Assembly: GCF_000421265.1 (NCBI RefSeq)
Contig: NZ_ATWN01000001.1
Span: forward strand, 124,001 to 188,000
DNA from: Thalassospira lucentensis MCCC 1A00383 = DSM 14000
GTDB lineage: Bacteria; Pseudomonadota; Alphaproteobacteria; Rhodospirillales; Thalassospiraceae
Length of the DNA: 64,000 nt
Direction: 5' to 3'
In this document: positions 58,594 through 63,151 of the stretch, piece by piece
Layout: every line of letters starts with the position of its first letter
Numbering within the stretch: position 1 is the first letter of the stretch
Program-made: the position numbers and the translations under genes
Notes under the pieces: generated by a model
Databases searched by the model: none
Told to the model about the DNA's origin: nothing
What the model saw: the letters and a program-made list of their open reading frames with translations, nothing else

Positions 58594-58739
58594 TGCGTTT
58601 GACGGGAATGTGCCAGCGAAACCGGGAAGATGAATGTAATTTGAAAATGGCAATCAAGGGTTGAATATTTTGATTTAAAGACCATACTGCATGTAGGGTT
58701 AAAATGCGTTTGGGGGCAAACGCCACGGGGGAGAGAACC

Positions 58740-61700
58740 ATGTTCAAGCGGTCTTCAGCAGCACCATTGCGTGCGCTTATTCTTGCGGGGATTGGCTGTT
58801 GCCTTTCTGGTGCGGTTTGGGCGCAATCGTGTTCAGCCTTGCGCGATGCGCCGCTTGTCCCGACCGATACGGCGTTATGTAAATCGCTAAGTGCGACTGT
58901 GGCCGATCCGTCTGGCTTGCCGCTTGATCAATATGAAGACGCCCTTTCGAAATTCTTTGATAACTGGTGCCATCGCGATACGGATGCCGGATGGGTGCGC
59001 GATAAATATGTCCGTGATACCGGGCCGTTTACCGCCAGTCGCGACACGACCGATATCAATGGTCAATGGACAGGCACCTATCACGGGACCCATTCGCCCG
59101 TCGTCATCTGGTATTCCCCTGAGATGGTCACCTGGTTGTCGAAAAACCGGGGTGCCGAGGATGCCCGACCCAGTACCCCAACCGCGATCCCCGATGGTGC
59201 AATCATGGTCAAGGAGATGTATCCGCAACCTGCGGCGGCCTGTGCAGGGGAAGACCCCACACGTCTTTGGCCAACCAGCGGTGCGGCGATCATGGTGCGT
59301 GATCAGGAGGCATCCTATGATGGTTGGTTCTGGGGCTGGTATGGCTGGCCCGGATCGGGGTGGAAAGCCGATTGGCCAGCGGGAACCAGCAATGGTCCGC
59401 CCAATATGGGCTTTGGGCAATATTGTGTGAATTGTCATGGGTCGGCCAAGGACATGACCTTTGCCGAGGTACGCAACCTTGAAGGTCATCCGGGGCAACC
59501 CGAAGTTTTCCTGTCGCAGGATTTCTTTGCCGGGCAGTATCTGGGCCAGGATGGCGGTGTTGCGCCGTCTGTCAAAAAGATCACGCCATCCAATGATGCG
59601 CCGTCTGATATCCATAGTTTGCGGGCAAAACTTGAAAAGGTGCCAGATCCACTGGGCAAAGCCCGCACTAGTGCACATCCCGATATGGCGGCGATTTTAA
59701 CCGCCTTTGCCAAAACCGGCAGCCCGTTTGAGTATGATCTGGCACCGCCAAGCGATATGCCGTCGCAGACTTATGATACTGTCTGGATGGATGCGGATGG
59801 CCCATCCGCGCACAGTCAATTCATGACCAGTGACCAATGTGTCGGGTGCCATGATGCCGGCAGTACGGGCTTGCAGTTTGACATGACCATGCCTGATCCG
59901 GATGGTGATCGTTTGTTGAACATGTCGCCGTACGCCACATGGCGATCATCGCCGATGGGGCTTGCGGGGCGCGATCCGATCTTCTTTGCCCAAATGGCAA
60001 GCGAGTTGCAAACCTTCCACAGTGATAAACCTGAACTGGTGCAAAACACCTGCTTTGGCTGTCACGGGATTATGGGACAGCGACAGTTCCAGATCGATCA
60101 CAATATGGCGCAGCAGGCCAGTGCAACAGCTGGTGTGCAAACAGCAGTTGATTGTGGTGATTTTACCAGATCAATGGTCGATGCAATTCCATATCCCGCC
60201 AATAATTCGGCGGCTGGTCACGCATCCTATGGGGCGTTGGCGCGTGATGGCATTTCATGCATGGCGTGTCATCAGATGGTGTTGGGCAAGGATGCCACCG
60301 AGAAGTTCAAGGACGCACCGCAGAATGCCTGTGTGTTGCAGCGTCAGGAAACGCTGAACCCGGATGCAACGGGCTTTGCCAAAACCTTTACCGGCAGTTT
60401 CCTTGTCGGGGATGCCGATACGCTTTATGGGCCGTTTGATAAACCGCAAAAACATCCGATGGAATATACCCTTGGCATTACCCCGGCCAAAGGGGATGCC
60501 ATCAAGACATCGGAAATGTGTGGCACCTGCCATACCGTGCATTTGCCGGTGTTAAAGGATGGCAAGCAGGTCGGCACGGTTTATGAGCAGACAACCTATG
60601 CCGAGTGGGCGTTTAGTGGGTTTAGAACCGGCTACACCCTTGATGGTGGGTTGCCCGGTGGTGCCGGGAAAATGGCGATGAGCTGTCAGGAATGTCATAT
60701 GCCATCGGGCGATGACAAAGCCAAATTCCGCAGTAAAATCGCCTCTATTCAGGAATATTCCAACTTCCCGGCTGCTGCCAATACGTTTGGGCCGGAGTTG
60801 CTTGACCTTGAGACCCGTGACGGGTTTGCCCGCCATACGCTGGTTGGGTTGAACCTGTTCCTGGTTGAGATGTTCCAGCAATTCCCGGATGTTATGGGCA
60901 TTCCAACCGCAGATCCGATGCTTGGCGACAAGGGCGTTGATCCGCTGGCCTATACCGAACGGGCGATGATCAAGCAGGCGCGCAGTGATACGGTTAATAT
61001 CGCCATTAAGGACGCTGCGATCAAGGATGGCAAATTGACCAGTGAGGTCGCCATTGCCAGCCTGACCGGGCACAAATTCCCATCCGGCGTTGGGTTCCGC
61101 CGCGCGTTTGTGACGTTTGAAGTGCTTGATCAGGATGAAAAAGTCATCTGGGCATCGGGCCGGGTCAATGGGGCCGGGGTGATTGTTGATCAGGGCGGGA
61201 CGCCAGTTGACGGCGAACTTTGGTGGGACAATCAGTGCAGCGCGCGTATTGATCCGCTTAAGCGGGCACATCAACCGCATTATCAGACGGTAAGTGCGCA
61301 AGATCAGGTCCAGATTTATCAGGAACTGGTCAGCACGCCGCCGCTTGATGGCAGCAGCCAATATAGCTGTGGTCACAACGTGGCGCCCAAAGGGCAACTG
61401 ACGACCAGCTTCCTGTCGATCTGTGCCGAGGTGAAAGACAACCGTTTGCCGCCGGCCGGTTACCTTCCGCTTAAGGAACGGATTGAAATTTCCAATGCGC
61501 TTGGGGCCGGGGATGAGCTTGCCGAGGATGCCGGATTTACGGCCATTGGCGATGATCCCGATTATCGCACATCAACCGCGACAGGCGGGGACCACGTGAA
61601 ATACGACATCAAACTGTCTGACATCGACGGGACACCGGCATCTGTGCGTGCCAAAATGTCCTATCAGGCGACACCGCCGTTTTATCTGCAGGATCGTTTC

Positions 61701-61826
61701 TGTACGGCCAAGGGTGATGATACCGAACGCCTTGCCTATCTTGTCGAGCACCTGAACCTTGATGATACCGCCGCTGAAAACTGGGCGTTTGAAATCGTCA
61801 ATACCGGGGCGGTGCCGATCAAGTGA
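58740..61826 (+). CDS. Large six-heme c-type cytochrome with P460-like N-terminal part
   Basis: 1028 aa from the ATG at 58740 (GGGGGAG upstream). Signal peptide LILAGIGCCLSGAVWAQS. Six CxxCH motifs: CVNCH near residue 229, CVGCH 367, CFGCH 438, CMACH 507, CGTCH 594 and CQECH 649. Residues about 140-260 (IPDGAIMVKEMYPQP, ASYDGWFWGWYG, CVNCHGSAKD) resemble the cytochrome P460 family. The last 350 residues contain LTGHKFPSGVGFRRAFVTFEV and HYQTVSAQDQVQIYQELV, as in other multiheme oxidoreductases. It is periplasmic, but no CcmA-H genes or partner reductase lie nearby. The reaction is not known. Confidence 0.82.
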   Translation: MFKRSSAAPLRALILAGIGCCLSGAVWAQSCSALRDAPLVPTDTALCKSLSATVADPSGLPLDQYEDALSKFFDNWCHRDTDAGWVRDKYVRDTGPFTASRDTTDINGQWTGTYHGTHSPVVIWYSPEMVTWLSKNRGAEDARPSTPTAIPDGAIMVKEMYPQPAAACAGEDPTRLWPTSGAAIMVRDQEASYDGWFWGWYGWPGSGWKADWPAGTSNGPPNMGFGQYCVNCHGSAKDMTFAEVRNLEGHPGQPEVFLSQDFFAGQYLGQDGGVAPSVKKITPSNDAPSDIHSLRAKLEKVPDPLGKARTSAHPDMAAILTAFAKTGSPFEYDLAPPSDMPSQTYDTVWMDADGPSAHSQFMTSDQCVGCHDAGSTGLQFDMTMPDPDGDRLLNMSPYATWRSSPMGLAGRDPIFFAQMASELQTFHSDKPELVQNTCFGCHGIMGQRQFQIDHNMAQQASATAGVQTAVDCGDFTRSMVDAIPYPANNSAAGHASYGALARDGISCMACHQMVLGKDATEKFKDAPQNACVLQRQETLNPDATGFAKTFTGSFLVGDADTLYGPFDKPQKHPMEYTLGITPAKGDAIKTSEMCGTCHTVHLPVLKDGKQVGTVYEQTTYAEWAFSGFRTGYTLDGGLPGGAGKMAMSCQECHMPSGDDKAKFRSKIASIQEYSNFPAAANTFGPELLDLETRDGFARHTLVGLNLFLVEMFQQFPDVMGIPTADPMLGDKGVDPLAYTERAMIKQARSDTVNIAIKDAAIKDGKLTSEVAIASLTGHKFPSGVGFRRAFVTFEVLDQDEKVIWASGRVNGAGVIVDQGGTPVDGELWWDNQCSARIDPLKRAHQPHYQTVSAQDQVQIYQELVSTPPLDGSSQYSCGHNVAPKGQLTTSFLSICAEVKDNRLPPAGYLPLKERIEISNALGAGDELAEDAGFTAIGDDPDYRTSTATGGDHVKYDIKLSDIDGTPASVRAKMSYQATPPFYLQDRFCTAKGDDTERLAYLVEHLNLDDTAAENWAFEIVNTGAVPIK

Positions 61827-61987
61827 TCTGAGGGTTGTTACCCTGCTGCGAAGATGGTTTACATTTCAGTTCAACCGCTGAGAGCTGGGAGTTTCTTGGT
61901 CGCGGGCTTAGGAAATAGCGATTGGGTTTCTTTGCCGTTACCGCCCTAGTCTAGGTGAATGGGTTAGTTAAGGCTGCTATTTCACAG

Positions 61988-62071
61988 CAACGTTATCGAA
62001 GAAGACAAGGGGGTTGATTTCGATTTCCTTGCCGGTCATCGTGGTAAGGAAAATCCCAAAGACACCCATTG
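61988..62071 (+). pseudogene. Relic of an IlvD/Edd-family dehydratase 3' end
   Basis: The deduced peptide DKGVDFDFLAGHRGKENPKDTH is nearly the same as the last residues of the intact dehydratase (DKGADFDFLVGHRGKEIPKDSH, 58436-58501), and the DNA matches at roughly 80 percent over about 80 nt. The TGA stop has become TGG. The 5' part of the gene is missing. The relic and the intact copy flank the multiheme cytochrome gene in direct orientation. Confidence 0.8.
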
Positions 62072-62173: not shown

Positions 62174-63151
62174 TCAGTTTGTGCAATGGGAGGCAACTAT
62201 TGCATTGTTCAACAGAAATACTGGAATTCCTTGCAAGTTAGAATACACTAATCCACATGGCTCGCACTTGAGACTGTGTTCGATTTTTGTCAGTTTACTG
62301 TGACACTTTGGGCACGCGTGCGACGGAGCTTTGGGAGAATTGACAGAGGTTGGATTTTTCTCAATCAGCACTAACGCGCCATGATGATACGCATCATGGC
62401 AATAAGGGACAAGTTCGTGCTTCAGAATCTTGTATCCAAGCTTTTTCACCGCAGGAATTATCCCCAAATTCCAGCCGCGATTGTACAACTTGGTTCTCTG
62501 TCCCTTGCTTCCTAGTTCGTAGGATGCCTCAATCACGAATACGTACTTACGGGCTACGCGATACATTTCTTGTATCGCTTCAAGTTCATATCCACCGAGC
62601 TCTTCGAGGCAATAGTGGCTGTACACAATATCAATGCTGTTATCTGGGTAAGGTAATTGAAGAATATTTGCAGCCGATAGTGTGTCTAAAGCGATTGATT
62701 TTTGGGCAGAAAAATCTCGTGCAAACTTGCATCTAGACCAAGATATGTCACTTCCATTGTAGGAGTTTTGTTCCTGATTTATAAATTCAGCCACTGGTAA
62801 AAGTGTTGTGCATTCTCCGGCACCCGCTTCTAGGACGGATCCGGGATCTTTACCTAATAGGCTAGCCACAAGTTCTGAGAGCCATTTATTGTGCAGGTCA
62901 ACTGATTCACCGTAGTTTACCTGTTTGATTTCTCCGTAGTGAGTTCCCAGAGACACTAGGCCGCCTTCATCATGCCTTCGCATGTATTCGTCAACATATG
63001 ATCCAGAACGCTTGTCATACGTAATGAGCGCATCCTGATAGTGTTCTTTCTGCAATCCGGCTGGCAGCTTTTGCAATGCTCTTTTAGCAAAAAACTTTAT
63101 CTTGCGTTTGATGATTGCACGGATGTTAATTTTTGTTCTTTTATCAGTCAT
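62174..63151 (-). CDS. SAM-dependent methyltransferase with C-terminal zinc-ribbon-like tail
   Basis: 325 aa. A basic N-terminus (KRKIKFFAKRALQKLP) precedes a class I methyltransferase domain (about 70-230): motif I VLEAGAGECTTLLPVAEF, motif II NGSDISWSRC, and DIVYSHYCLEELGG. The last 50 residues are Trm112-like: CPKCHSKL....LKCEPCGLVYSNLQGIPVFL, with two CxxC-type pairs. This recalls methyltransferases of surface-polysaccharide or small-molecule pathways that carry a zinc tail. It is AT-rich and its codons differ from those of the flanking genes, suggesting transfer. Substrate unknown. Confidence 0.8.
   Translation of the reverse strand: MTDKRTKINIRAIIKRKIKFFAKRALQKLPAGLQKEHYQDALITYDKRSGSYVDEYMRRHDEGGLVSLGTHYGEIKQVNYGESVDLHNKWLSELVASLLGKDPGSVLEAGAGECTTLLPVAEFINQEQNSYNGSDISWSRCKFARDFSAQKSIALDTLSAANILQLPYPDNSIDIVYSHYCLEELGGYELEAIQEMYRVARKYVFVIEASYELGSKGQRTKLYNRGWNLGIIPAVKKLGYKILKHELVPYCHDAYHHGALVLIEKNPTSVNSPKAPSHACPKCHSKLTKIEHSLKCEPCGLVYSNLQGIPVFLLNNAIVASHCTN

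Follow-up and report, generated by a model that had tools for sequence, protein, structure and literature searches.

Cytochrome P460 predicted to be fused to a c552/PHC-type pentaheme cytochrome in Thalassospira and other Proteobacteria

The 64,000-nucleotide stretch of Thalassospira lucentensis DNA analysed here (contig NZ_ATWN01000001.1, positions 124,001 to 188,000), henceforth called the window, contains an open reading frame (ORF) at 58740-61826 (+) whose 1028-residue product is almost certainly a clean fusion of two modules, with a cytochrome P460 module placed N-terminal to a pentaheme cytochrome of the c552/PHC kind. P460 chemistry connects hydroxylamine (NH2OH) to nitric oxide (NO) and the greenhouse gas nitrous oxide (N2O), and the P460 proteins known so far, those of ammonia oxidisers and methanotrophs, are small and carry one heme. 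As far as the literature was searched the fusion is new, in the sense of two known modules newly combined and not of a new kind of enzyme. The preferred functional reading, to which an even chance is given, is a self-wired P460 protein that would handle NO or hydroxylamine by way of its five c-type hemes, the substrate and the electron direction both being putative.

The ORF listing gave 1028 codons and a stop. An alternative in-frame ATG at 58704 would extend the protein to 1040 residues, and the start at 58740 was favoured because GGGGGAGAGAACC lies immediately 5' of this ATG and because the Sec-type leader, as read by eye, ends in VWA before a Q. The protein is predicted to be exported, with a periplasmic location. 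Six CxxCH motifs were found in it, as claimed by the original prediction, which had been made from the sequence of the window; their first cysteines are residues 229, 367, 438, 507, 594 and 649. The last motif ends at about residue 653 and is followed by 375 residues devoid of any CxxCH, close to the heme-free end of about 350 residues that had been described. The Cys and His of all six motifs are invariant across 26 aligned family members, an alignment compiled without near-duplicate Thalassospira copies, the truncated L024, L044 (which has an in-frame stop codon), the fragments L047, L048, L055 and L057-L060, and the P460-less L081 and L062. The ratio of nonsynonymous to synonymous substitution rates (dN/dS) of the gene was 0.056 against L013 and 0.093 against L014, both near relatives, values that point to strong purifying selection. 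Because the Cys and His are invariant in the 26 members and dN/dS is only 0.06-0.09, the six motifs are not due to chance.

Structure prediction and comparison with known cytochromes had been proposed as a check on the original prediction. The AlphaFold2 model of the mature protein, with a mean predicted local distance difference test score (pLDDT) of 79 and a predicted template modelling score (pTM) of 0.81, divides into two known folds: the first matched P460 and the multiheme part matched c552 (PDB entry 5ze8), a result that contradicts a hydroxylamine oxidoreductase (HAO) architecture. Between the modules lies a linker modelled largely at pLDDT <50, which was also the part with the highest dN/dS for 3 of the 4 relatives that gave a finite value.

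The P460-like segment reported around the first heme was borne out by both sequence and fold. Pfam PF16694 matched residues 145-240 (E 1.6e-8 and 35.4 bits, above the cut-off of 27), the sole confident match of the 1028-residue protein to sequence models, and 24/25 aligned family members matched the same model at E<=0.01. Modelled alone, the module reached a pLDDT of 83.9. The best 17 PDB entries aligned to this model by VIA-align were all P460 or cytochrome c'-beta proteins (Z 7.6-10.4), and the next, unrelated row had a Z of 3.7. Foldseek with the domain alone returned nothing at E<=0.001 (best E 0.14); the P460 fold is therefore assigned from the VIA-align matches together with the sequence.

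The second module was identified as a relative of Thermochromatium tepidum c552. VIA-align of mature residues 322-999 with 5ze8 gave a Z of 17.3 and a root-mean-square deviation of 3.1 over 354/385 residues at 23% identity, and Foldseek matched the mature-protein model to the same entry at E 8.8e-9. The family profile also found 5ze8 by sequence, at E 4.9e-7 in one search and 1.1e-7 in another. As this match covers the C-terminal part, the heme-free end is taken as the beta-sandwich of a c552-type cytochrome and not as a new domain. In a single-protein sequence search of the PDB no solved relative was found below E 0.2. The original prediction was to be refuted if a characterised multiheme enzyme of equal length matched closely, and in that database none did. 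The PHC family, as described in the consulted part of PMC11976967, comprises pentaheme cytochromes with an immunoglobulin-like domain (ExtKL, Gsu2801 and cable-bacteria cytochromes) and is structurally homologous to T. tepidum c552, for which the same source gives no clear assigned role. NCBIfam ExtKL (NF040886) was matched by 9/25 members at E<=0.01 (best 1.9e-7); the window protein scored 12.1 bits, far under the cut-off of 250 bits, and is therefore regarded as a PHC/ExtKL relative and not as ExtKL. Pentaheme cousins without a P460 part exist (L081 and L062, the latter from Sulfurovum), which argues that the two modules are separable; these cousins form very long branches in a quick tree. 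The combination from which an unusual enzyme had been suspected is novel in its N-terminal P460 module, whereas the multiheme and C-terminal parts belong together as the one known c552/PHC kind, and the protein is a family member and not a singleton.

The functional reading depends on the P460 heme site. According to the consulted part of the review PMC11928373, Lys78 is the heme cross-link residue of Methylococcus capsulatus P460 (its Table 2), NH2OH oxidation by P460 is tied to the Lys cross-link and to a distal carboxylate (Glu96/Asp102), and every cross-link-deficient P460 characterised to date is inactive. Lys158, the equivalent of Lys78 in the alignment with 6hiu, is K in 26/26 full-length members, and a role with NO or NH2OH is plausible because this lysine is kept. 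In the proposed mechanism, the P460 heme would be Lys-cross-linked, five-coordinate and open, and would bind a small nitrogenous molecule, either NO or hydroxylamine, and the five c-hemes would carry electrons, in either direction, between it and a soluble redox partner. Such flow between the P460 heme and the c-hemes would allow a single polypeptide to carry out multi-electron chemistry. A stand-alone role, for example in clearing NO or hydroxylamine from the periplasm, is preferred over a step in an operon-encoded pathway because the gene is isolated. Were hydroxylamine oxidised, another distal base would be needed, for which the invariant Asp88, Arg92 and His118, all within the longer N-terminal part of the P460 module, are candidates. 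A bolder version of the proposal, offered tentatively, is a second, independently built 'HAO', in which a Lys-cross-linked P460 heme and a pentaheme conduit in one polypeptide would serve heterotrophs that do not nitrify, as well as purple sulfur bacteria, in oxidising hydroxylamine to NO or N2O; its distal acid/base system would be another than the known carboxylate, with these three residues as candidates.

Several observations weigh against the NO or hydroxylamine reading. The position of the catalytic carboxylate (Ala183 in the window protein) is A in 20/26 and T in 6/26 members and Asp or Glu in 0/26, and the M-V-K/R-D anchors beyond it align gap-free with 6hiu. P460 of Nitrosomonas sp. 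AL212 (NsP460), which has the cross-link and likewise Ala at the carboxylate position, does not oxidise NH2OH (PMC11928373, Table 2, consulted in part). Because the catalytic carboxylate is missing, the protein departs from the NH2OH-oxidising type and an NH2OH enzyme is putative; by its sequence the family resembles cross-linked P460s, but any proton relay in it would be a different one. The invariant His118, three residues from the capping position in the alignment, could moreover ligate the first-heme iron and close the site. The genomic context adds to these points. No nitrogen-cycle gene was found among the neighbours of the cytochrome gene, and the window genome has no nosZ and no nirK above the cut-off. 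Across 29 Thalassospira genomes nosZ was rarer with the cytochrome gene than without it (2/10 vs 13/19; Fisher p 0.021, uncorrected for kinship).

If His118 were the sixth ligand, the first heme would be six-coordinate and the whole protein a non-catalytic electron-transfer hexaheme. The invariance of this histidine in 26/26 members and its closeness to the capping position fit such an arrangement, but it offers no reason for an invariant lysine at the cross-link position, and the distal site is open in those P460 and c'-beta hemes that have been characterised; this alternative is considered quite improbable. Rather more room is left for a gas-binding site, although it too is doubtful: the P460 heme would be a non-catalytic or slow 'halfway house', as in NsP460, and would trap or sense NO, with the pentaheme part setting its redox state or reducing bound NO. 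The Ala/Thr at the carboxylate position, the lack of pathway genes nearby and the lower frequency of nosZ in genomes that have the cytochrome gene all agree with this alternative. It does not readily accommodate the cross-link lysine kept in every member, which gas-binding c'-beta proteins lack, and five extra hemes would be costly for a trap or sensor.

A link to denitrification was considered and rejected, nosZ being rarer and not commoner with the cytochrome gene and nirK above the cut-off being limited to five genomes (4/10 with the cytochrome gene and 1/19 without, uncorrected for kinship). The original prediction had tentatively proposed a nitrogen or a sulfur compound as substrate. The nitrogen part stands as plausible through the P460 lysine, with the reservation of the missing carboxylate; the sulfur part (tetrathionate) found no support apart from a suggestion about c552 quoted in PMC11976967 (consulted in part).

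The protein may alternatively be an O2- or peroxide-reducing terminal enzyme like lPHCtX of cable bacteria, in which case electrons would arrive at the pentaheme part and be used by the N-terminal heme to reduce O2 or peroxide. Both proteins have the same type of wire bearing a ligand-binding heme module at its end, truncated-hemoglobin fusions such as lPHCtX have been suggested as terminal oxidases (PMC11976967, consulted in part), and NeCP-beta shows peroxidase-like activity (PMC11928373, likewise). Against this, wild-type NeP460 has no guaiacol peroxidase activity and gains it in the Lys70Ala variant (PMC11928373, same part). The corresponding lysine is invariant in the present family, and a terminal-enzyme role is judged unlikely.

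Same-length relatives were found in 9/28 other Thalassospira genomes and in 1/71 other genomes of the order, and, among named records, in Thiorhodococcus, Thiohalocapsa, Primorskyibacter and metagenome-assembled genomes of Hyphomicrobiales and Acetobacteraceae. Sampling more widely, matches occurred in 19/385 genomes of the class and 20/398 of the phylum, many of them partial or to the c552-type part alone. PF16694 itself was detected in at least 43/398 genomes, a lower bound since the window's own gene escaped this survey. A divergent set at 35-38% identity retains the six hemes and the lysine and includes a copy on plasmid p599725 of Paracoccus seriniphilus (L061, 331539-334550), annotated 'hypothetical protein', with a cytochrome c3 gene and an nqr operon (Na+-translocating NADH:quinone reductase) nearby. 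In the quick tree two gammaproteobacterial Chromatiaceae lie nearest the Thalassospira group within an otherwise alphaproteobacterial group (SH-aLRT, a Shimodaira-Hasegawa-like approximate likelihood ratio test, 98), a nesting that suggests transfer between bacterial classes. On these sequences the family appears patchy and horizontally spread.

An operon or partner gene was sought and rejected. Close orthologs of different genera have no neighbour gene in common, and ten flanking genes that were scanned are unrelated (a histidine kinase, an EamA transporter, a hydrolase, a helicase and one diheme cytochrome c, the rest without a match). A viral or phage origin was likewise discarded, as viral contigs held no relative and neither a PHROG match nor a viral fold match at E<=0.001 was found. 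The cytochrome gene is broken in two genomes of one family that share its neighbours, by an in-frame stop in L097 (G794) and as scattered fragments with stops in L099 (G521). A separate cluster (L100, 8353-19211 of G376 contig 28) encodes a 745-residue pentaheme cytochrome with weak similarity in the C-terminal part, together with a tetraheme c554-type cytochrome, a ten-CxxCH cytochrome, a flavin reductase and an iron-sulfur protein.

The features of the locus are listed in Table 1. As originally described, the gene sits between a sugar operon and a relic. A ChvE/GguA/GguB multiple-monosaccharide ATP-binding cassette transporter and an L-arabinonate dehydratase are encoded to its left, and the relic, derived from the dehydratase gene, lies to its right, followed by a methyltransferase-like gene and a HAD phosphatase gene. 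The methyltransferase-like gene (62174-63151, -) has a single CxxCH in a zinc-ribbon-like tail with a weak Trm112p-like match, which is probably not a heme site. The relic is also present in L012 and is longer in L020 (11218-11611, covering residues 480-615); the same tblastn search found none in L013, L014 or L023. In 18/19 Thalassospira genomes without the cytochrome gene the HAD phosphatase gene lies <=1.5 kb past the dehydratase gene (it was not found in G020). The cytochrome gene, where present, directly follows the dehydratase gene in 6/10 genomes and lies about 5-9 kb away in 4/10. Given the relic of the dehydratase end and the empty sites in other Thalassospira, the gene is interpreted as an insertion at the dehydratase gene, and a relic of this kind would remain if the target gene had its end duplicated in the event. 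The four distant copies, in a T. mesophila-like group (L015, L016; G011, G019, G026, G027), are found beyond the HAD phosphatase gene, a second position that the gene reached by moving or by being inserted anew. The ORFs listed at 54-64 kb include no gene for cytochrome maturation or for a reductase, in agreement with the original prediction; CcmH is encoded elsewhere in the genome (G000 contig 2), and maturation is supplied from another genome site. In a scan for promoters and terminators no signal stood clearly above chance.

Table 1 Features of the P460-pentaheme cytochrome gene and its surroundings in the window.
Feature	Coordinates	Strand	Basis
Signal peptide, residues 1-28	58740..58823	+	Predicted by eye: MFKRSSAAPLRALILAGIGCCLSGAVWA/Q
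Cytochrome P460/c'-beta fold module, full-length residues ~62-251 (mature ~34-223)	58923..59492	+	PF16694, fold match
His118, close to where the capping residue of the distal heme pocket lies	59091..59093	+	Invariant 26/26
Lys158, aligned with the heme cross-link residue Lys78 of M. capsulatus P460	59211..59213	+	Alignment with 6hiu
Ala183, at the catalytic distal carboxylate position (Asp102 of M. capsulatus P460)	59286..59288	+	Alignment with 6hiu
CxxCH 1 (P460 heme)	59424..59438	+	Motif, invariant in 26
Variable linker between modules	59493..59786	+	Model pLDDT largely <50
Pentaheme c552/PHC-like module	59787..60983	+	VIA-align and Foldseek to 5ze8
CxxCH 2	59838..59852	+	Motif, invariant in 26
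CxxCH 3	60051..60065	+	Motif, invariant in 26
CxxCH 4	60258..60272	+	Motif, invariant in 26
CxxCH 5	60519..60533	+	Motif, invariant in 26
CxxCH 6	60684..60698	+	Motif, invariant in 26
Heme-free C-terminal beta-sandwich (immunoglobulin-like), conserved GHxxPSG motif	60984..61823	+	Family profile and VIA-align to 5ze8
Relic of upstream dehydratase gene 3' end (its residues 585-615, 68% identity)	61977..62069	+	tblastn E 7e-10

HAO is an octaheme enzyme, and membership of the window protein in the HAO family has next to no probability. The two have in common the idea of a P460 heme joined to a multiheme wire; the heme number (six CxxCH, not eight) and the fold, with a lysine-type P460 module first and a multiheme part matching c552, rule membership out. 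In HAO a P460-type catalytic heme is wired to c-hemes, as would be the case here, but HAO has a tyrosine cross-link and an unrelated scaffold (PMC11928373, consulted in part), whereas the window protein combines the lysine-type fold with six hemes.

The closest known counterparts of the N-terminal approximately 190 residues are P460 of M. capsulatus (6hiu) and of Nitrosomonas (2je2, 6amg), which have the same fold, a CxxCH near the end of the module and a lysine at the cross-link position. Those proteins are small, carry one heme each and mostly crystallise as dimers, whereas the window protein has 1028 residues and six CxxCH, its P460 module being fused to five more hemes. Like wild-type 6amg, this module has no carboxylate at the established distal position; it has a longer N-terminal part than known P460s, with the conserved Asp88, Arg92 and His118. 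A P460-pentaheme fusion was not found in literature searched on cytochrome P460, including Thalassospira, Thiorhodococcus and 5ZE8, and the words 'fusion' and 'multidomain' are absent from the consulted main text of PMC11928373. If widespread among purple sulfur bacteria and heterotrophs of the sea, fused P460 would add an as yet unassigned player to periplasmic nitrogen chemistry, and the family offers a natural test of lysine cross-link function where the distal carboxylate is missing and of the way in which electrons exit a P460 heme.

In the pentaheme part the window protein resembles T. tepidum c552 and the PHC family (ExtKL, Gsu2801 and the cable-bacteria sPHC/lPHC), all with five CxxCH followed by a beta-sandwich, and differs from c552 in its longer loops and in the P460 module that c552 lacks. 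The design is the same as in lPHCtX, where a ligand-binding heme module is carried by the same kind of pentaheme wire (PMC11976967, consulted in part). The module of lPHCtX is a truncated hemoglobin, in cable bacteria, whereas here it is a P460, in Proteobacteria, and no globin domain was among the Pfam matches of the window protein up to E 1. By analogy, the P460-fused PHC would be the counterpart of the truncated-hemoglobin-fused PHC, and the two kinds of fusion together suggest that the PHC pentaheme is a general wire that accepts different ligand-binding heme modules.

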